This document shows positions 1,310 to 40,714 of a stretch of DNA of 60,850 bases, piece by piece. Position numbers and translations under genes: made by a program. The number at the start of each line of letters is the position of its first letter. Position 1 is the first letter of the stretch. The notes beneath the pieces are model-generated. The model was not told the DNA's origin, ran no database searches, and worked only from the letters and a program-made list of their open reading frames with translations. Origin of the DNA: Thermoplasmata archaeon. Its GTDB lineage: Archaea > Thermoplasmatota > Thermoplasmata > Lutacidiplasmatales > UBA184. The stretch is taken from NCBI GenBank assembly GCA_022750455.1, contig JAKIVR010000006.1, positions 1 through 60,850 on the forward strand, written 5' to 3'.

Positions 1310-2338
1310 ATGTCGTTGAATGACGTGACCCCCCCGCCGAGCCCCCCCGCTCCCGCCTCGCCCGGTCGGAGCGTCCCGCTCACCTGGGTCGTCGTAGGCA
1401 TCCTCGTCGTCGCCGGCGCGGCGATCGTTGGGACCGCGGCGATCCTCGGCCGGTCCTCCTCCTCCCCCGGGGCCGTTACGGTGACCGACGATCTCGGTCG
1501 GACGGTCAGCTCCCCGTACGATCCCGCGCGGGTGGTCGTTCTCGGCCCCAGCATCATGGACGACATGTACCGGCTCGGACTTCGCAACCGCGTCGTCGGC
1601 GTCGACTGCTACACTCCGATCGGAGGCGGCCTCTCGGCCGACTACTCCTCCGACCAGGTCGCGTTGTGGACCCTCTCGGGCTCGATGTGCGTCCAGATCG
1701 GACCGAGCTTTGATTTCGAGTCGCTCCTGAATGCGACCCCCCAGCTCGTCCTCGCGTCGACCATCGTCTCCCAATCGTCGGTGGAATCGATCAGCACCAC
1801 GTACCACATCCCGGTGGTGATGCTGCAACCCCCCACGCTGAGCGGCGTGCTCGTCGATCTCACGCTCCTCGGGACGATCTTCGGCGTCGCCCCGGCGGCC
1901 GCTGCCTTGAACGCCCAGCTGTCGACGGAGCTCGCCAACGCTTCGGCGATCCAACAGACGTTGTACAGCTTCCCCACCGTCCTCGTGACGTACGATACGG
2001 ACTTGAACGGGTACTGGACGTTCGGCCCGGGTACCTTTGGGGAGTCGCTCATCGAACTGGCCGGAGGGGCGAACGTCAACGGGGCGAACTCTACGTTCCC
2101 CTACCCGGAGCTCTCCGGCGAGCAGGTTCTCGTGGCGAATCCCCAATACATCATCGTCGGCACGGGCTTCGGACTCAATGTGTCGAGCTACTCGGGCGCT
2201 CCGTTCTGGACCCATCTCGGGGCCGTCCAGAACGGGAACGTCACGGGGATGGACTCGAATTGGATGACCGAGCCGGATCCGACGATGATCTTGCAAGGGC
2301 TGCCGGCCATGATCGCGATCTTGCATCCGACCACCTGA
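1310..2338 (+). CDS. ABC importer substrate-binding protein, BtuF/FhuD type
   Basis: 342 aa. A Pro-rich cytoplasmic N-terminus is followed by one membrane segment (about residues 22-46) and an extracellular binding domain of the helical-backbone TroA/BtuF class. That domain begins VTVTDDLGRTVSSPYDPARV, the usual opening of the family, and contains a typical helical backbone and a second lobe (LVTYDTDLNGYWTFGPGTF). It should capture corrinoid, haem or a ferric chelate outside the cell and hand it to the permease encoded 9 nt downstream. The start is the ATG placed about 30 nt from a TATA-like box. The BtuCD order and ATPase type favour a cobalamin, haem or siderophore substrate; the sequence does not tell which. 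Confidence 0.85.
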   Translation: MSLNDVTPPPSPPAPASPGRSVPLTWVVVGILVVAGAAIVGTAAILGRSSSSPGAVTVTDDLGRTVSSPYDPARVVVLGPSIMDDMYRLGLRNRVVGVDCYTPIGGGLSADYSSDQVALWTLSGSMCVQIGPSFDFESLLNATPQLVLASTIVSQSSVESISTTYHIPVVMLQPPTLSGVLVDLTLLGTIFGVAPAAAALNAQLSTELANASAIQQTLYSFPTVLVTYDTDLNGYWTFGPGTFGESLIELAGGANVNGANSTFPYPELSGEQVLVANPQYIIVGTGFGLNVSSYSGAPFWTHLGAVQNGNVTGMDSNWMTEPDPTMILQGLPAMIAILHPTT

Positions 2339-2347
2339 TAGGCCGCC

Positions 2348-3484
2348 GTGCCCAACGTCCGGCCGGTGGCTGCGACCCCCACGGCTCAACCGCCACGATC
2401 CGGAACTGTCCCGACGACGCGTCGCCGCCGGACGATAACGCTCCTCGTCCTCGCGCTCGTCGCCCTCGGTCTGTTTCTCGTGTCGCCGTTCCTCGGCACG
2501 GTATCGATCCCGTTCGAGACGGTCCTGCGCATCACGCTGGAGAAGATCTCCGGAGGCGCCCTGTTCCCCCAGCCGTGCACCGGGTCCTCCGGTCCATCGT
2601 CCACCCTCTGCCAGGCGTACCAGCTGATCATCTGGGATGAGCGGCTCCCCGAGATCCTTCTCGCGGTCCTGGCGGGAGCCGCCCTGGGGATGTCGGGGGG
2701 AGCCCTCCAAGGTCTCTTTCGGAACCCGCTCGCGGATCCGTTCCTCCTCGGGCTCTCGAGCGGAGGGACCCTCGGCGCGTCCGCTGTGTTCGTCTTCGGA
2801 GTCGGACAGTCCGAGGCGTACCTCGCCCTCCCGATCTTCGCGTTCCTCGGGGCGATCGGGACGGGCCTTCTCATCCTGGGGATGGCGAGCACCCGGTACG
2901 GCTCGGTGGAGACGCTCCTTCTGACGGGGGTGGCCATCGCCAACATCCTCGGTGCGGCGCTCGCGCTGGTCCTTTTGTACAATCCGACGGCCTCCATCCA
3001 AGTCAGCTTTTGGCTCCTGGGAGGGCTCGGGCAGGGCACGTGGTCGACGGACGGCATCGTGTTCGGGGTGCTCCTGATCGGAGGCACCTTGCTCGCCGTC
3101 CATGGACCGGAGCTGAACCTCATCCAGCTCGGCAACGATGTCGCCCAGAGCGCCGGGGTCGATCCTCGACAGATCCGGATCCGCGTCCTCCTCCTGACCT
3201 CCGTCCTCACCGCCGTCGCAGTCGCCTTCACCGGCGTCATCGGCTTCGTGGGACTCGTCGCTCCCCACGTGGTCCGCCGGGTGGTGGGCTCGGACTACCG
3301 CTGGGTGTTGCCGGGCTCGGCGATCGTGGGGGCGCTCTTCCTTCTCAGCGCACGGGACGTCTCCCTCCTGATCTTCCCGAGCTCTGTCCTGCCGATCGGG
3401 ATATTCACCGCGTTCGCCGGAGCTCCGTTCTTCCTCTACCTACTGTACCGCCAGCGGAATCGGACCACCATGGGAGGCTCTTGA
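2348..3484 (+). CDS. FecCD/BtuC-family ABC permease
   Basis: 378 aa from a GTG start 9 nt after the binding-protein stop. It is a polytopic membrane protein with about ten hydrophobic segments. It carries family landmarks: LPEILLAVLAGAALGMSGGALQG with FRNPLADPFLLGLSSGG (cytoplasmic ATPase-contact region) and TGVIGFVGLVAPHVVRRVVG near the C-terminus. It forms the membrane channel of a vitamin B12/haem/iron-chelate importer with the flanking binding protein and ATPase. Its TGA shares a base with the ATG of the ATPase gene, implying translational coupling. The N-terminal 30 residues are variable, so the GTG is the best but not a proven start. Confidence 0.88.
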   Translation: MPNVRPVAATPTAQPPRSGTVPTTRRRRTITLLVLALVALGLFLVSPFLGTVSIPFETVLRITLEKISGGALFPQPCTGSSGPSSTLCQAYQLIIWDERLPEILLAVLAGAALGMSGGALQGLFRNPLADPFLLGLSSGGTLGASAVFVFGVGQSEAYLALPIFAFLGAIGTGLLILGMASTRYGSVETLLLTGVAIANILGAALALVLLYNPTASIQVSFWLLGGLGQGTWSTDGIVFGVLLIGGTLLAVHGPELNLIQLGNDVAQSAGVDPRQIRIRVLLLTSVLTAVAVAFTGVIGFVGLVAPHVVRRVVGSDYRWVLPGSAIVGALFLLSARDVSLLIFPSSVLPIGIFTAFAGAPFFLYLLYRQRNRTTMGGS

Positions 3485-4815
3485 TGACCCACCCCTCCGC
3501 CGCCCCGGCCGTCCGGCTGCGAAACATCACCGTCCGGTACGGCGCCCGGACCGCGCTCCATGAGGTCTCGCTGAACGTGATCCCCGGAGAGTTCGTCGCC
3601 CTCGCCGGACCCAACGGCTCCGGCAAGACGACCCTCATCCGATCCGTGCTCGGGTTCCTGGAGCCGTCGGAGGGGTCGATCGAACTGTTCGGTCGACCAC
3701 TGTCGGGACTGTCGGTCCGGGATCGGGCACGGCAGGTCGCGTGGGTCCCTCAGGAAGAGGCGCCGCGGGACAACGTCCCGCTCGAGGAGTACATCCTGTA
3801 CGGCCGGTACCCATTCCACCGGGCCCTCGAAGGGGAGACGACCGAGGACCGACGGATCGCCCGCGACCTCCTCCGGGCGCTCGACCTGGAGGACCGGGCG
3901 GCGGACGGGATCCTCTCCCTGAGCGGGGGGGAGCGGCAACGGGCGGTGCTCGGCCGGGCGCTGGCGCAATCCGCGCCCCTCCTGCTCTTGGACGAACCGA
4001 CCTCCCACCTCGATATCGGCCATCAGCTCGATCTCCTCTCGCGGGTCCGCGAGCTCGCCCACCGCGACGGCGTTACCGTCATCGCCGCGTTGCACGACCT
4101 GAACCTCGCCGCCCAGTTCGCGGACCGGATCGTGGTCCTCTCCCGCGGGCGTTGCCACGCCGATGGCCCTCCCTCGAAGATCCTGACGGAGGCGCTCCTC
4201 GCCCACGTGTGGGGAGTGATCGCGGAGCGACGCATCGAACCGCGAACGGGGCGACCGTATCTGATCCCGCGGAGGCTCCTTGCCGAGAGTTCGACGGCGG
4301 TCGGGACCGATGCATTCGGTCCGATCCACGTGGTCGGCGGAGGCGGCGCGGCCAGCCCGTACCTTCGGGCCCTCGTGGACGAGGGGTTCGAGGTCAGCGC
4401 CGGCATCCTCCACCTGCTCGACTCCGACGCCGAGACCGCCGAGGCTCTGGGGATCCCCGCGACCGTCGAGGTTCCGTTCGCTCCGATCAGCCCGGCCGTG
4501 CGCGAGCGCCATCGCGCGCTCCTCTCCCAGGCGCGGGCCATCGTGGTCACCCCGTTCGCCGTCGGCCCCTCGAACCTCGCCAACCTCGAAGATCTCGGCG
4601 CCCGGTCGGCGCATGTCCCGATCTTCCTCGTGACCGGACCCTCGATCGAGACGCGCGACTTCACCCAAGGGGTGGCGACCCGCCTGGTCCGCGAGTTGGA
4701 GGCGGGCGGCGCCCGTTCCGTGGGCGGGATCGAGGAGTTGTTGCGCGAGTTACGTGCGTTGGCGGCGAGAGCGGTTCCGGCCGGAGCGGCGGGCCCGGAC
4801 CGAGGCGCCCCCTAG
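3484..4815 (+). CDS. BtuD-type ABC ATPase with an extra C-terminal domain
   Basis: 443 aa. Residues about 1-260 form a complete ABC ATPase: Walker A GPNGSGKTT, signature LSGGERQRA, Walker B LLLLDEPTSHLD and a switch His in AALHDLN. Residues about 275-440 form an additional domain starting GPIHVVGGGGAASPYLRAL, with an alpha/beta pattern and repeated references to ligand-pocket-like loops. Similar extensions occur in some archaeal cobalamin-importer ATPases, as far as I recall; their role is unclear. The gene is the last of the three-gene importer operon. Its 3' end overlaps the convergent regulator gene by 66 nt. Confidence 0.87.
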   Translation: MTHPSAAPAVRLRNITVRYGARTALHEVSLNVIPGEFVALAGPNGSGKTTLIRSVLGFLEPSEGSIELFGRPLSGLSVRDRARQVAWVPQEEAPRDNVPLEEYILYGRYPFHRALEGETTEDRRIARDLLRALDLEDRAADGILSLSGGERQRAVLGRALAQSAPLLLLDEPTSHLDIGHQLDLLSRVRELAHRDGVTVIAALHDLNLAAQFADRIVVLSRGRCHADGPPSKILTEALLAHVWGVIAERRIEPRTGRPYLIPRRLLAESSTAVGTDAFGPIHVVGGGGAASPYLRALVDEGFEVSAGILHLLDSDAETAEALGIPATVEVPFAPISPAVRERHRALLSQARAIVVTPFAVGPSNLANLEDLGARSAHVPIFLVTGPSIETRDFTQGVATRLVRELEAGGARSVGGIEELLRELRALAARAVPAGAAGPDRGAP

Positions 4816-5662: not shown

Positions 5663-7681
5663 CTACGGGGCGGCCGCCGCCGGGCGACGCCGGGGCCGGC
5701 GGTCCTCCTCCAGCGAGCGCAGCCGATCGCGGATGCGCGCGGCCTCCTCGAACTCGAGGCGCTCGGACGCGAGTCGCATGTCCTCCTCCAAGTTCGCGCG
5801 CAGGAGCTTCCACTCGCTGGTCCCTACGTCGGGCATCGCGGAGGCCTCCGCGCTTTCGGACTCCCCGAGGAGGTTTCGGATCTCCTTCCGGATCGTCTCG
5901 GGGACGATTCCGTGGGTCCGGTTGTACGACAGCTGCTTCTTGCGCCGTCGGGCCATCTCATCGATTGCCCGCTGCATGGAGCCCGTCATCCGGTCCGCGT
6001 ACAGCAGGACCTTCCCCTCGAGGTTCCGGGACGCTCGCCCGGCGGTCTGGATGAGCGACGTCTCGCTGCGGAGGTACCCCTCCTTGTCGGCGTCGAGGAT
6101 CGCCACCAGCGAGACCTCGGGCAGGTCGAGCCCCTCCCGGAGGAGGTTGATCCCCACGAGCACGTCGAACCGGCCAAGCCGGAGGTCCCGGAGGATCTCG
6201 ATGCGCTTGAGCGTCTCAATGTCCGAGTGGAGGTAACGGACCTTCAGCCCCTGCTGGGCGAGATACGTGGAGAGGTCCTCGGCGGTCCGCTTGGTGAGCG
6301 TGATCACGAGGGAGCGATTACCGCGCTCGACACCGGCCTTGATCTCGGCGAGCACGTCGGCGATGTGACCCTGGAGCGGCCGCACCTCGATCGGAGGGTC
6401 CACGAGCCCGGTGGGGCGGATGATCTGCTCGACGATCCCCTGGCTTACCTTGCGCTCGAACGGTCCCGGGGTCGCCGAGACGAACACGGCCTGGGGGACG
6501 CGGCGGAGGAACTCCGGGAAGGTGAGAGGTCGGTTGTCCTTGCAGGAGGGAAGTCGCCAGCCGAAGTCGACGAGATTGTCCTTGCGGGCCCGGTCGCCCT
6601 TGTACATCCCGTGGAGCTGGGGCACCGCCACGTGGGATTCGTCGAGGAAGACGAGGGCGTCCTTCGGGAAGAAGTCAAGGAGGGTGTAGGGCGGTTCCCC
6701 GGCCTTCCGCCCGGAGAAGTACCGCGAATAGTTCTCGATCCCGGAGCAGTACCCGGTCTCCCGGATCATCTCGATGTCGTACTCGGTCCGGCTCTTGATC
6801 CGCTGGGATTCGACGATCTTCTTCTCCTCGTCGAATTCCCGGACACGCTCGACCTTCTCCGCATCGATCGCCTTGAGGATCGGTTCGAGCTTCTCCCGGA
6901 CGGAGATGAAGTGCGTCGCAGGGAAGATCTCGACGTGGTCGAGCGACCGGCGCTCGTCGAAGGTGACCGGCTGCAGCTCGAAGATCTCCGCGACCTGGTC
7001 CTCCTCGAGGACGATCCGGTGCAGCGTCTCGCCCGAGCCCATGACGTCGATCACCGCCCCGCGCACCCGGAACCGTCCGCGGGCGAGCTCGACATCGTTG
7101 CGGGCGTAGTGGCTCGCCACCAGTCGGGCGAGCAGCTCCTTGCGGCTGATCGTCTCGCCTTTGCGAAGCTCGACCACGCCGGAGCGGTAATCCTCGGGAG
7201 AACCGAGGCCGAAGATGCAGCTCACGGACGCGACGATCAGGACGTCGCGGCGGGTGAGCAGCGCCTGGGTGGCGCGATGTCGGAGCTTGTCGATCTCCTC
7301 GTTGATCTGCGCATCCTTCTCGATGAACAGGTCGATCTGGGGGACGTACGCCTCGGGCTGGTAGTAGTCGTAGTAGCTGACGAAGTATTCGACCGCGCTC
7401 TCGGGGAACAGCGCCCGAAACTCGCTGACGAGCTGCGCGGCGAGCGTCTTGTTCGGGGAGATCACGAGCGTCGGCCGCTGGAGCGCGGCGACGACGTGGG
7501 CCATGGTGAACGTCTTGCCCGAGCCGGTCACCCCGAGCAGCGTGGCGTAGCGCTCCCCCCGCTCGAGCCGCCGGGTGAGCTCGGCGATCGCGGCCGGTTG
7601 GTCGCCCTGGGGCTCCATCTCGGTCGAGAGGACGAACCGCGAGCCACCATCGGTCGGTGCCGGAAGGAACGACTTTCCCAT
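5663..7681 (-). CDS. uvrB: Excinuclease ABC subunit B
   Basis: 672 aa, the usual UvrB length. It begins close to the family's GDQP motif (EPQGDQPAAIAEL), followed by Walker A GVTGSGKTFTM, the beta-hairpin region VSYYDYYQPEAYVP, the helicase motif FLDESH, SATPGPFE, the motif LLREGLDLPEVSLVAILDAD with QTAGRASRN, and a C-terminal UVR domain (LEFEEAARIRDRLRSLEED). It loads at DNA lesions with UvrA and recruits UvrC for nucleotide excision repair. The ATG at 7681 has GAGAGG just upstream; an ATG at 7696, overlapping the larE stop, is the alternative. UvrABC in archaea is a bacterial-type system usually attributed to lateral transfer; uvrA and uvrC are not in this window. Confidence 0.95.
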   Translation of the reverse strand: MGKSFLPAPTDGGSRFVLSTEMEPQGDQPAAIAELTRRLERGERYATLLGVTGSGKTFTMAHVVAALQRPTLVISPNKTLAAQLVSEFRALFPESAVEYFVSYYDYYQPEAYVPQIDLFIEKDAQINEEIDKLRHRATQALLTRRDVLIVASVSCIFGLGSPEDYRSGVVELRKGETISRKELLARLVASHYARNDVELARGRFRVRGAVIDVMGSGETLHRIVLEEDQVAEIFELQPVTFDERRSLDHVEIFPATHFISVREKLEPILKAIDAEKVERVREFDEEKKIVESQRIKSRTEYDIEMIRETGYCSGIENYSRYFSGRKAGEPPYTLLDFFPKDALVFLDESHVAVPQLHGMYKGDRARKDNLVDFGWRLPSCKDNRPLTFPEFLRRVPQAVFVSATPGPFERKVSQGIVEQIIRPTGLVDPPIEVRPLQGHIADVLAEIKAGVERGNRSLVITLTKRTAEDLSTYLAQQGLKVRYLHSDIETLKRIEILRDLRLGRFDVLVGINLLREGLDLPEVSLVAILDADKEGYLRSETSLIQTAGRASRNLEGKVLLYADRMTGSMQRAIDEMARRRKKQLSYNRTHGIVPETIRKEIRNLLGESESAEASAMPDVGTSEWKLLRANLEEDMRLASERLEFEEAARIRDRLRSLEEDRRPRRRPAAAAP

Positions 7682-37016: not shown

Positions 37017-37919
37017 TTACGGCTCGTCTCGGGAGCCGAACTCGTCGGCGAAATCGACCGGTGCGTCCGGAGCCGGGCTGGGAGCGACCGAGGGAGCCGG
37101 GGATGCGCTGGGCTTCGGACCCGTTCGGAACTTGAAGACGAGCCGCTGGCAGTAGTCGATCGCGCTCTCCCCGGAGTCTCGGGAGATCCCGGTCTGGCGT
37201 TCGACCTCGACGATCTCGGGCTCGACCTCGTTGAGGTACGCTTCCGCCTCCCCCATGCCGCGCAGTAGCTTTTCGGCGGCGATGATCGATTGGAGCCGCC
37301 GGGCGATCTCGGCCATATCGCTGCCGGAGAGCTTCTTCTCCGCCGAAGGGGAGGGGGCGAGGGAGCGAAGGGCCACCGGGGGCACTGGCCGCGGGGCCGG
37401 GGGCCGGAGCACGGGCGGCGGGGAGGGGGAGCGGACCGGTTCCGGGGGTGGGGGTGCCGCGACCGGGGGGGTCGGCTCCACGACGGGCGTCTCGGTCTCG
37501 GACGATTCGGACTCCTCGACGGGCTCCTTGTCGCCGGGGGGCGGGGGCGGGCCTTCCGAGAACGTCCCATCGACGTCGCCGCTCGCCATATTGACCTTCA
37601 CACGGAGCCAGCGCTCCCATTCGGCGCGGGGCACGACGATCTCGGTGGCGTCGAGGTCGAGCGTGGCCTCGGGAGGTGCTTCCCAGTCGAGGAACGCGCA
37701 GAGGATCCCCCCGAGGAGGGCGACGAGGCCGATCGTCAGAAGCCACGGCCAGAGCGGAAGCCGCCCCAAGTACGTCTCGACGTGGCTGACGAGCATCCAC
37801 GAGGAGAGGCCGACGCTCGCGGCCCCCAGGAACACCAACGGGAGACCTTGACGGAACCCGGAGCCGAGGGCGACGGGCCAAGCGGACCGCTCCTCCGCCG
37901 GTCCTTTCTCCTTCCCCAC
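37017..37919 (-). CDS. Two-TM protein with Pro-rich linker and helical C-terminus, last gene of the secreted-paralogue operon
   Basis: 300 aa. Two membrane segments lie at about residues 26-48 and 56-78, with a short loop between. A long Pro/Glu/Ser-rich stretch (about residues 120-190) and a helical segment follow (MAEIARRLQSIIAAEKLL, then YLNEVEPEIVEVERQTG). The C-terminal tail is Pro/Ala-rich. No family recognised. It starts 13 nt after the fourth secreted paralogue gene, so it likely belongs to the same transcript and may be an anchor, assembly or regulatory partner. It does not carry the cysteine pair of the paralogues. Confidence 0.65.
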   Translation of the reverse strand: MGKEKGPAEERSAWPVALGSGFRQGLPLVFLGAASVGLSSWMLVSHVETYLGRLPLWPWLLTIGLVALLGGILCAFLDWEAPPEATLDLDATEIVVPRAEWERWLRVKVNMASGDVDGTFSEGPPPPPGDKEPVEESESSETETPVVEPTPPVAAPPPPEPVRSPSPPPVLRPPAPRPVPPVALRSLAPSPSAEKKLSGSDMAEIARRLQSIIAAEKLLRGMGEAEAYLNEVEPEIVEVERQTGISRDSGESAIDYCQRLVFKFRTGPKPSASPAPSVAPSPAPDAPVDFADEFGSRDEP

Positions 37920-37932
37920 GATCCGTTCCTCC

Positions 37933-38523
37933 TCAGCTCACCACGATGTCAAGGACGGCGACGCCCGCCGCGGGCGGTGTCGCCGAGCCGTAGTCGATGT
38001 ACACGTCGAGGTCCCCCGTGTAGGTCCCGGTCGTGGCGGCCGCGGTGAGCTTGCAGCTCTCCGACGTGCTCGTGGGCGAGGCGGCGGCGGGGAGCTGGGA
38101 GGACATCGTGATCGCATTCGTCTGGGTGACCGCCGTGCCCGTGACCGCGACGGAGAAGGAGAAGTTGTACACTTCCGCGTAGTTCCCCAGGGCGCACGTC
38201 CCCCCGGTGGAGGAGAGGACCATGTTCTGGACCGGGGGCGTGGCACTCGTGGAGAGGGCGAGGGTCAACACGCCCGTGGTGCAGGCTCCCACGGGATTGG
38301 TGGACGCCTCGAGGGTGGGGACCGGGTAGTGGACGACCTGAATGTCCCCTCCGGTGTCCAGGTTGGCCGTCTGGGTGACCGAGACGCTGGGAAGGACGGA
38401 GGCGACCGTATACCCGGCGACCACGCTGAGGGCCGCCAGCACGAGGGCGAGGGAGGCGATCCTCGGGTCCCCGGCGGGGCCCGGGCGGCCCGGTGATCCC
38501 GGAGAGCGGGGGGAGAGCGTCAT
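37933..38523 (-). CDS. Secreted paralogue 4 of a tandem family, single N-terminal TM
   Basis: 196 aa. A Pro/Arg/Gly-rich cytoplasmic start, TM or signal at about residues 22-43 (IASLALVLAALSVVAGYTVA), then a beta-rich ectodomain. Aligned Cys lie in GACTTGVLTLAL and GGTCALGNYAEVY, with one extra Cys in SESCKLTA. The C-terminus GTYTGDLDVYIDYGS, PPAAGVAVLDIVVS is closely similar to the other paralogues. Its ATG overlaps the stop of paralogue 3 by 4 nt. No named family recognised; likely a cell-surface subunit. A leader cleavage site cannot be placed with confidence. Confidence 0.75.
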   Translation of the reverse strand: MTLSPRSPGSPGRPGPAGDPRIASLALVLAALSVVAGYTVASVLPSVSVTQTANLDTGGDIQVVHYPVPTLEASTNPVGACTTGVLTLALSTSATPPVQNMVLSSTGGTCALGNYAEVYNFSFSVAVTGTAVTQTNAITMSSQLPAAASPTSTSESCKLTAAATTGTYTGDLDVYIDYGSATPPAAGVAVLDIVVS

Positions 38524-39158
38524 TGCACCGTCAGGTCGAGGAAGGTGACGCCCCCGGGGAGGGGGGCGATCGAGCCGAAGTCGACGTGGACATCGAGGTC
38601 CCCCTTGTACGTGCCGGCCATGGCGGGCGCCTGGATCTCGAACAGCTCCGAGGTCGAGAAGAGCTGGCCGCCCCCCCAGACCTCCGAGTTGACGGTGATA
38701 TTGTTGGTCTGGCTGAGCGCCGTGGTCGTGATCACGACGGAGAAGGCGAACACCCACTCGTATCCGACGTCCTTGGTCGCGCACGTTCCCCCGTCGTAGG
38801 AGAGCTCCAGGTCCTCCGTCGGAGCGGTCCCGGTCGAGAGCGTGAGGCTCTTCAATCCGCTCGTGCAGGCGGCGATCAGGCTCGGCGTGTAGACGAGCGT
38901 CGGGTTGTGATAGTTCGGGACGGCGGAGCCGGTTCCCGAGCTCTCCTCGGCGGCCTCGGAGACGCCTTGGATCGGCAACACCACCGCGAGGGCGGCACCG
39001 GTCGTGCTGCCCACGACGATCGCGATCGCGAACGCGATGGCGATGCGGCCCGACCAGTGTCCCCGGGGGGGGCGGAGGGCGAACTCGCGCGGGGAGGCGG
39101 CCCTGAGGGAGACGGGTGGCGCCGGGGAGGAGTCCGAGGCGATCGGATCCGCGCCCAT
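38520..39158 (-). CDS. Secreted paralogue 3 of the tandem family
   Basis: 212 aa. TM at about residues 37-61 (IAIAFAIAIVVGSTTGAALA), preceded by a Pro/Arg-rich cytoplasmic stretch. Aligned cysteines in IAACTSGLKSLTL and GGTCATKDVGYEW; SQTNNITV and GTYKGDLDVHVDFGS then LPGGVTFLDLTVQ complete the shared pattern. Its ATG directly follows the paralogue 2 stop codon (TGA-ATG), and its own stop overlaps paralogue 4. The most divergent ectodomain of the four. Confidence 0.75.
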   Translation of the reverse strand: MGADPIASDSSPAPPVSLRAASPREFALRPPRGHWSGRIAIAFAIAIVVGSTTGAALAVVLPIQGVSEAAEESSGTGSAVPNYHNPTLVYTPSLIAACTSGLKSLTLSTGTAPTEDLELSYDGGTCATKDVGYEWVFAFSVVITTTALSQTNNITVNSEVWGGGQLFSTSELFEIQAPAMAGTYKGDLDVHVDFGSIAPLPGGVTFLDLTVQ

Positions 39159-39710
39159 TCAGCTCACCACCAGGTCGACCTCGGGGATCCCCGCGGCGGG
39201 GAACGCGACCGTCGCATAGTCGATGACCAGCGTCAACACCGCGGAGAATGGCCCGCCGGTCGACGGGCTCGTCAGCAGGATGTCGAGATACGTCGAGACG
39301 ATCTGCCCGCCGACGAGCGAGACGACGGTCAGATTGTCCGATTGGTTCAACGAGAGCGTGGCGGTCGCGAGCGGGATCGTGAACTCTTCCCCATAGTCCC
39401 CGACCGTGCAGGTGTTCCCGCCCGTCGATCCAATCGTCGCGGTGGAGCTCCCCGCGACGGCCGAGAGGGGGACCGTCAGGAGTCCCGAGGTGCACGAGCT
39501 CGCACCGGTCGTCGCCTGGGAGAATGCGGGCGTCCCGAAGTTGGCGACCCCGCCGTTCCCGTCCTCGTACGTGTCGATCTCGGAGGTGACCGAGACCGGC
39601 GTGACGATGGCCGCCGTCGCGCCGTGCAGAAAGAGACCGATAGAGGTTCCGACGATCGTGATGACGGCGAGAGTGACCCACACGGAGCCACGGGGCGCTC
39701 CGGTCTTCAT
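39159..39710 (-). CDS. Secreted paralogue 2 of the tandem family
   Basis: 183 aa from the ATG at 39710, preceded by GGGGGA. Alternative in-frame ATGs at 39821 and 39809 would add a Pro-rich cytoplasmic segment. TM at about residues 10-32 (VWVTLAVITIVGTSIGLFLH). Ectodomain with paired Cys (SSCTSGLLTVPL, GNTCTVGDYGEEF), LNQSDNLTVVS, then FSAVLTLVIDYATVAF and AGIPEVDLVVS. Separated from paralogue 1 by 189 nt holding a strong hairpin, so it may be translated from a weaker, processed or read-through transcript. Confidence 0.72.
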   Translation of the reverse strand: MKTGAPRGSVWVTLAVITIVGTSIGLFLHGATAAIVTPVSVTSEIDTYEDGNGGVANFGTPAFSQATTGASSCTSGLLTVPLSAVAGSSTATIGSTGGNTCTVGDYGEEFTIPLATATLSLNQSDNLTVVSLVGGQIVSTYLDILLTSPSTGGPFSAVLTLVIDYATVAFPAAGIPEVDLVVS

Positions 39711-39852
39711 TCCCCCATACCGGAGTCGGCCCTCAACTCTAGGCCCGGGGCCCGTCGAACGAATTCCCCGAGAGGTCGGGGGCTCAAGGGTCGGAGGAGA
39801 GGTGTTCATCGGTCGCCGCATCGAACGTCGTTCCCGTGCTTGCAAAGGGTTC

Positions 39853-39874
39853 GGGGAGGCCGGAGGGCCTCCCC
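39853..39874 (-). terminator. Perfect 9-bp hairpin between paralogue 1 and paralogue 2
   Basis: GGGGAGGCC and GGCCTCCCC are exact inverted repeats around a 4-nt loop, starting 25 nt after the paralogue 1 stop. No U-tract follows, so it is better viewed as an mRNA-stabilising, processing or attenuating element than a factor-independent terminator. Confidence 0.5.
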
Positions 39875-39899
39875 GGGTCGAGGTCGGGACGGGCGCGCT

Positions 39900-40457
39900 C
39901 TACTGGACGACGACGTTGAGCAGGGTGATCCCGCCCGAAGGGGGGTTCACGCTGCCGTAGTCGACAAAGACGTCCAGCGTGCCGGTATACGTGCCCGCGG
40001 GGGCGGCCGTGGTGACCTTCATCGACTGGGTGTTGGTCGTCACGGAGCCCGCGCCCACCTGGGAGGTGATGGTGAGGGTGTTCACCTGGTTCAGGCTCGT
40101 CGTGGTGCTCGAGAGCGCGAACTGGAACTCTTCCGCAAAGTCGCCCGCCGCGCAGGTTCCGCCGGGAGCGACGGTGACCTGGGCCGTGGGGGGCGTCGCG
40201 ATCGAGAGGGCGACCGTCTGCTGGCCCGATGTGCACGAGCTCGTCGGGGAGATCGAGATCAACAGCGTCGGGGCCGGGTAGGTCGGTACCCCCGCGCCAG
40301 TGCCTTGGTCGAAATCGGCGGTCTGCGTGACGGAGGTGCTCGTCAGGACCGAGGCCATGGCAAATCCGCCCGTGATTCCCAAGATCGCCACTACAGTCCC
40401 CAAGAACACGGCGCGTCCGGTCCATCGAGAGTCTCTCCAGTTCGGCATTCGCCCCAT
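39900..40457 (-). CDS. Secreted paralogue 1 of the tandem family, first gene of the operon
   Basis: 185 aa. TM at about residues 15-38 (AVFLGTVVAILGITGGFAMA), ectodomain Ser/Thr-rich and beta-predicted. Aligned Cys in SSCTSGQQTVAL and GGTCAAGDFAEEF, then LNQVNTLTITSQVG and GTYTGTLDVFVDYGS, PPSGGITLLNVVVQ. No class III prepilin signal is evident. It sits directly downstream of an AT-rich palindromic promoter with TATA-to-start spacing of about 30 nt, and a hairpin follows, so it is probably the most abundant product of the operon, possibly the major subunit of a surface structure. Confidence 0.77.
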   Translation of the reverse strand: MGRMPNWRDSRWTGRAVFLGTVVAILGITGGFAMASVLTSTSVTQTADFDQGTGAGVPTYPAPTLLISISPTSSCTSGQQTVALSIATPPTAQVTVAPGGTCAAGDFAEEFQFALSSTTTSLNQVNTLTITSQVGAGSVTTNTQSMKVTTAAPAGTYTGTLDVFVDYGSVNPPSGGITLLNVVVQ

Positions 40458-40481: not shown

Positions 40482-40493
40482 CGTATTAATACG
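40482..40493 (-). promoter_or_regulatory. Palindromic TATA/operator of the paralogue operon
   Basis: CGTATTAATACG is a perfect 12-bp palindrome within a short AT-rich patch of about 20 nt. Its centre is 31 nt from the paralogue 1 ATG, so it can serve as the TATA box and as a symmetric binding site for a dimeric regulator. The rest of the 257-nt divergent intergenic region to radB shows no other gene. Confidence 0.55.
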
Positions 40494-40714
40494 TATTTAC
40501 ACGCCTGATAGGCGCCGGGGACGGTGTATATCCCCCACCCCCGCCCCGGCCGCCCCCGTCCTACGGCCCCACGGCTCGGGTTGGCCGGGACGATCCTGCC
40601 ACAGGGGTCCCTCGGTCGACGGGGCGCGCCGGGGTCTCCGCATCGTTAAGATTCTACGGACGGTCCGGTCGGAGGGCGGCCTCCTCCGAGCCCCGCCCCG
40701 GATTTGAACGGCTG

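Follow-up and report, generated by a model that had tools for sequence, protein, structure and literature searches.

We found that five consecutive minus-strand genes of a Thermoplasmata archaeon (genes A to E) hold one copy of a previously undescribed two-part module, which is present in most sampled members of one Thermoplasmata family and was found nowhere else in our searches. Genes A to D each encode an N-terminal hydrophobic helix followed by a beta-rich ectodomain, and gene E encodes a predicted membrane hairpin with a long tail. The window, which is the whole stretch of 60,850 nucleotides that was analysed, corresponds to contig C86 in an assembly of 2.16 Mb (GC 66-72%). The genes flanking the module read like, and presumably are, those for the archaeal exosome, the proteasome and EF-2. 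Lutacidiplasmatales are described with ~69% GC and genomes of 2.1 Mb (PMC9287336).

Table 1. Coordinates of the module and its features in the window.
Feature	Position	Strand	Description
Gene A	39900..40457	-	185 aa; the paralogue nearest the family consensus
Gene B	39159..39710	-	183 aa from the start used in the initial annotation; most divergent paralogue
Gene C	38520..39158	-	212 aa paralogue
Gene D	37933..38523	-	196 aa paralogue
Gene E	37017..37919	-	300 aa, GTG start; hairpin of two TM segments, then a Pro-rich tail; lacks the zinc ribbon
Block of genes A-D	40457-37933	-	
Conserved N-terminal helix of gene A	40353..40415	-	Residues 15-35 (R15, aromatic at 18, G31, A35)
Cys75-to-Cys102 stretch of gene A	40152..40235	-	Cys pair of the family
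Conserved TM hairpin of gene E	37680..37862	-	Hairpin profile E=6.6e-21 (own sequence among the profile's input)
GC-rich stem-loop between A and B	39852..39875	-	10 bp; -26.4 kcal/mol for the 61-nt stretch, z=-2.15
AT-rich TATA-like stretch upstream of gene A	40482..40500	-	Candidate archaeal promoter, from reading of the sequence

The initial annotation had described four consecutive minus-strand genes and a fifth that completes the unit, and the coordinates, strand, lengths and junctions of all five check out. It had also described tight gene spacing. This holds for B and C (a direct TGA-ATG junction), for C and D (a 4-nt ATGA overlap) and for D and E (a 13-nt gap), but not for A and B. Depending on the start taken for B, these two genes are separated by 54 nt (TTG at 39845), 78 nt (ATG at 39821), 90 nt (ATG at 39809) or 189 nt (ATG at 39710), with a stem-loop inside the gap. 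No T-run terminator was called at the stem-loop, which may mark a partial 3' end for transcripts of A. Given this gap and the stem-loop, a single transcript of all five genes is best taken as putative.

Genes A to D are paralogues, as had been proposed. Aligned over their length, B, C and D are 32%, 40% and 46% identical to A, and a whole-genome search with A retrieves D (E=2e-38), C (E=2e-34) and B (E=9e-19). Against the family profile A itself scores E=7e-63, A being among the input sequences of that profile. Two aligned cysteines had been noted and are indeed invariant across A-D (Cys75 and Cys102), but the count of two is incomplete for D, which carries a third at position 157. The conserved pair probably forms a disulphide. 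In a tree of the sequences compared, A, C and D group together with support (97/89), from which it follows that part of the array, at least, originated in this lineage; B has no supported position in that tree.

Tandem arrays recur in the family. Across 107 beta-protein clusters, 89 consist of a single gene and 18 are arrays of at least two genes, every one of them on the same strand. Arrays of two to four recur, and the widest profile described below adds further arrays of three. Accordingly, the array in the window is among the largest and is not unique in kind. Dozens of genomes have homologues that support the reading frames, as does purifying selection among relatives, where dN/dS ranges from 0.12 to 0.25 in the beta-protein family and from 0.31 to 0.44 in E (both constrained, E the less so). 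Among the genes of the window, codon adaptation places A at the 14th percentile, B at the 43rd, C at the 84th, D at the 55th and E at the 10th. These ranks do not mark A as a major subunit and lend no support to the earlier suggestion that the major subunit is encoded first.

Of 300 genomes in the class, a narrow profile detects relatives in 12, each belonging to the GTDB family of the window, and a wider profile finds them in 65 of the 103 genomes of that family. With the widest profile, the homologous clusters that the initial annotation had proposed to look for in Thermoplasmatota appear in 74 of the order's 106 sampled genomes (~70%), again in a single GTDB family, and the genome of the window has ten matches. 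A search of 390 genomes of Thermoplasmatota gave no credible match outside that family, only a few partial hits at E values of 1e-4 to 1e-2. All relatives with names are MAGs labelled 'Thermoplasmata archaeon'.

Three features are shared by the members: the N-terminal helix, C-x-x-G-D-[FY]-A-E in the core, and D-x-G near the C-terminal side; the module of the window has all of them, with an E hairpin adjoining the cluster, and belongs to a subtype with a VVQ-like C-terminus. Another subtype (L082-L084, L086-L094, L098 and L120) ends in QC....CP at the very C-terminus, that is, in a terminal Cys pair. Two more modules are present in the same genome, one on contig C54 (L118) and one on contig C84 (L039), each consisting of one beta-protein and an E with a zinc ribbon. 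In one relative (L038), the module lies just upstream of homologues of three window genes at 1556-4815 (53-58% identity) and also upstream of a homologue (73%) of the window gene at 5663-7618; there is no module at those genes in the window.

The fifth gene had been taken as unrelated to the other four. Based on our data, it is instead a conserved partner of the family: an E-like gene with a TM hairpin lies within 2 kb of 48 of the 107 beta-protein clusters (chance ~0.4% per E), and 50 of 95 E hits lie near such a cluster. In 37 cases E is downstream on the same strand and in 10 it is on the opposite strand, so that the linkage persists through a switch to divergent orientation. For the other 59 clusters no E was detected nearby; short contigs and the limited sensitivity of the search account for some of these, and others may genuinely lack it. 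The initial annotation had stated that homologues dispersed singly among unrelated neighbours would count against its reading; the clusters are mostly single but often stand beside E. E-like genes were mostly missed by the codon-bias gene caller and were recognised by scanning the neighbourhoods. Over 32 linked pairs, the distances among beta-proteins and among E proteins correlate (Mantel r=0.56, the best of 2000 permutations reaching 0.25), a correlation that is partly confounded by species phylogeny.

The profile of the E hairpin has P-L-L and P-L-W at the starts of the helices, and a conserved G and GG in helix 2. The hairpin is followed by a Pro-rich tail that varies strongly among relatives. 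In most of these it closes with a zinc ribbon of two CxxC motifs, and in some it has helical repeats. The ribbon is absent from the E of the window and from its relatives of the same genus (L026 and L027). The alignment of E-like proteins contains no invariant residue that could be catalytic, and E as a protease is rejected on this ground. DUF4129 (PF13559) matches two long E-like proteins weakly and below the cut-off (E=0.0005 and 0.002) and is undetected in the E of the window. In another genus of the same family (L109-L112), E-like open frames of ~936-987 aa have genes in their vicinity that resemble, on reading, those of KaiC-type ATPases; the stretches searched contained no beta-protein. 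L109 and L110, the two that were measured, have a second TM pair, and L110, the only one of these four that was scanned, has a weak DUF4129 match.

The helix is the best-conserved part of the beta-protein family, with 40% pairwise identity compared to 23% in the ectodomain (28-member alignment). G31 is found in 28 of 28 members, R/K15 and A35 in 27 of 28 each, and V8 of the mature chain is nearly invariant. An ordinary signal peptide that is cleaved off would not usually be conserved to this degree. Small residues in the helix have no significant helical periodicity (p 0.18-0.68). An A-x-A-like site follows the helix in all 28 members (loose pattern), as cleavage would need, and which would weaken the idea of a lasting membrane tether.

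Membership of two known classes of surface protein was rejected. Class III signals, as in type IV pilins, have a [KRDE][GA] cleavage site before the hydrophobic segment; tested as a simple pattern, this motif was found in 0 of 28 members. A C-terminal hydrophobic segment with LPxTG or PGF, as in substrates of sortases and archaeosortases, was likewise found in 0 of 28. A TIGR02228-type signal peptidase is encoded on contig C42 of the same genome, yet several family-bearing genomes gave no hit to it. A SipW-like peptidase thus does not track the family and is rejected as its partner.

Pfam and NCBIfam searches with all five proteins and 20 family members gave weak, scattered hits only, in agreement with the initial impression that no described family was recognisable. 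One of these, to DUF4402 (PF14352), covers most of gene A (E=0.087), is below the curated cut-off and is matched by one of the 20 family members. Sequence searches of the PDB with one protein and two profiles returned no credible match. The full-length model of gene A reached a pLDDT of 63 and had no significant fold match. For L043, a consensus-like relative with 48% identity to mature A, the mature domain is predicted to be all-beta (pLDDT 82, pTM 0.80) with residues 1-9 disordered. This model has no significant fold match in the PDB (E<0.001) or among viral folds. TasA is absent among the 50 PDB fold matches listed, although a low score may be expected of a monomer without its donor strand.

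Our best explanation, which we hold tentatively and at somewhat less than even confidence, is that A-E represent a single copy of a two-component module of the cell surface, specific to this family, in which the hairpin of E would handle or hold the conserved helix. The first component would be a small exported beta-rich domain with a Cys pair, headed by the helix that ends in the A-x-A-like site. The second would be the membrane hairpin, with its large C-terminal part probably in the cytosol, since zinc ribbons of the CxxC type are expected there. Export of the beta-protein would be carried out by the Sec machinery. E might then recognise the helix through its hairpin, or hold it in the membrane; such a relation is the simplest reading of a conserved helix and a linked membrane hairpin. 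The ectodomains may form a coat or short assemblies on the cell surface, with E as a platform that would anchor them and link them to the cytosol. Duplication of the first component, four copies of which are found here, would provide diversified subunits on one platform.

Several other explanations account for part of these data. In line with the fibre that the initial annotation had tentatively proposed, A-D could be subunits of an extracellular filament in which the conserved N-terminal tail, once released by signal peptidase, completes the beta-sandwich of the next subunit by donor-strand complementation, as happens in TasA fibres, archaeal bundling pili and archaeal threads. The all-beta domain, the several paralogues per locus and the order of features in the mature chain (an A-x-A-like site, then a conserved tail around V8 that is disordered in the model) agree with it, and such fibres have published precedent in archaea (PMC9715654, PMC9674648). 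However, profile comparisons linked the family neither to TasA nor to a PDB chain, and we found no significant fold match and no SipW or TapA gene in the loci; gene A has codon usage unlike that of an abundant protein, and the helix is conserved beyond the needs of a simple signal peptide. We consider the filament unlikely and retain it because the conserved disordered tail is what a fibre needs, while little else points there.

A sensor is less probable still. Here the ectodomains of A-D, tethered to the membrane, would bind a ligand or surface and pass a signal to E, whose zinc ribbon or helical repeats would recruit cytosolic partners. The size and variability of the E tail, the several different modules per genome (on contigs C86, C84 and C54 here) and the proximity of E-like proteins to KaiC-type-ATPase-like genes in some genomes (L109-L112 and L090) suit a sensor, but those ATPase genes adjoin only some loci, no known signalling domain is present, and tandem copies on one E suit subunits better than receptors. 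We give the lowest weight to E as a dedicated helper for export or processing of a distinct signal class, in the way that SipW serves TasA and TapA, with A-D being otherwise free secreted proteins. A family-wide signal-like helix with an A-x-A-like end and a linked membrane protein would be expected of such a helper; nonetheless E lacks an invariant, potentially catalytic residue and the TIGR02228 peptidases do not follow the family, which makes this reading improbable.

Under the two-component explanation, the helix and hairpin pair raises the direct question of whether one of them binds, holds or processes the other. A classical cell wall is often missing in Thermoplasmata, and a multi-copy exported family with a dedicated membrane partner in most sampled genomes of the order is a candidate part of the cell covering. 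The module probably builds part of the cell surface. The broader proposal of a new surface-assembly system confined to one Thermoplasmata family, in which a hairpin with a cytosolic zinc ribbon would serve a distinct class of signal or anchor helix as its dedicated platform and tandem, diversified beta-subunits would build surface structures, is doubtful at present, and we offer it as a speculation. The paper describing the Lutacidiplasmatales makes no mention of cell surface, pili, adhesion or biofilm (PMC9287336).

Finally, we compared the module with known surface systems. The initial annotation had raised a similarity to TasA and camelysin, which is rejected at the sequence level: PF12389 had no match in the genome of the window and none over the cut-off in 21 genomes (a B. 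subtilis control matched), and hhalign against TasA gave a probability of 0.1%. Nor does the confident L043 model lend the similarity any support. The module also differs from TasA/camelysin in its conserved Cys pair and in the absence of SipW and TapA from the loci, and the module of the window contains no peptidase gene. The Saci_0406 threads of Sulfolobales have a mature chain that starts with a conserved Asp and carries a YYY motif (PMC9715654); the mature chain starts with Asp in 0 of 28 family members, and membership of the threads is rejected. The module nevertheless has in common with the threads a Sec/SPI-type export of a beta-rich subunit, independence of a class III peptidase and a neighbouring accessory gene. 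With TasA/camelysin and the archaeal bundling pili it has in common small exported beta-rich proteins, an A-x-A-like end of the signal and neighbouring accessory genes, and by analogy donor-strand exchange could be a further feature common to them.
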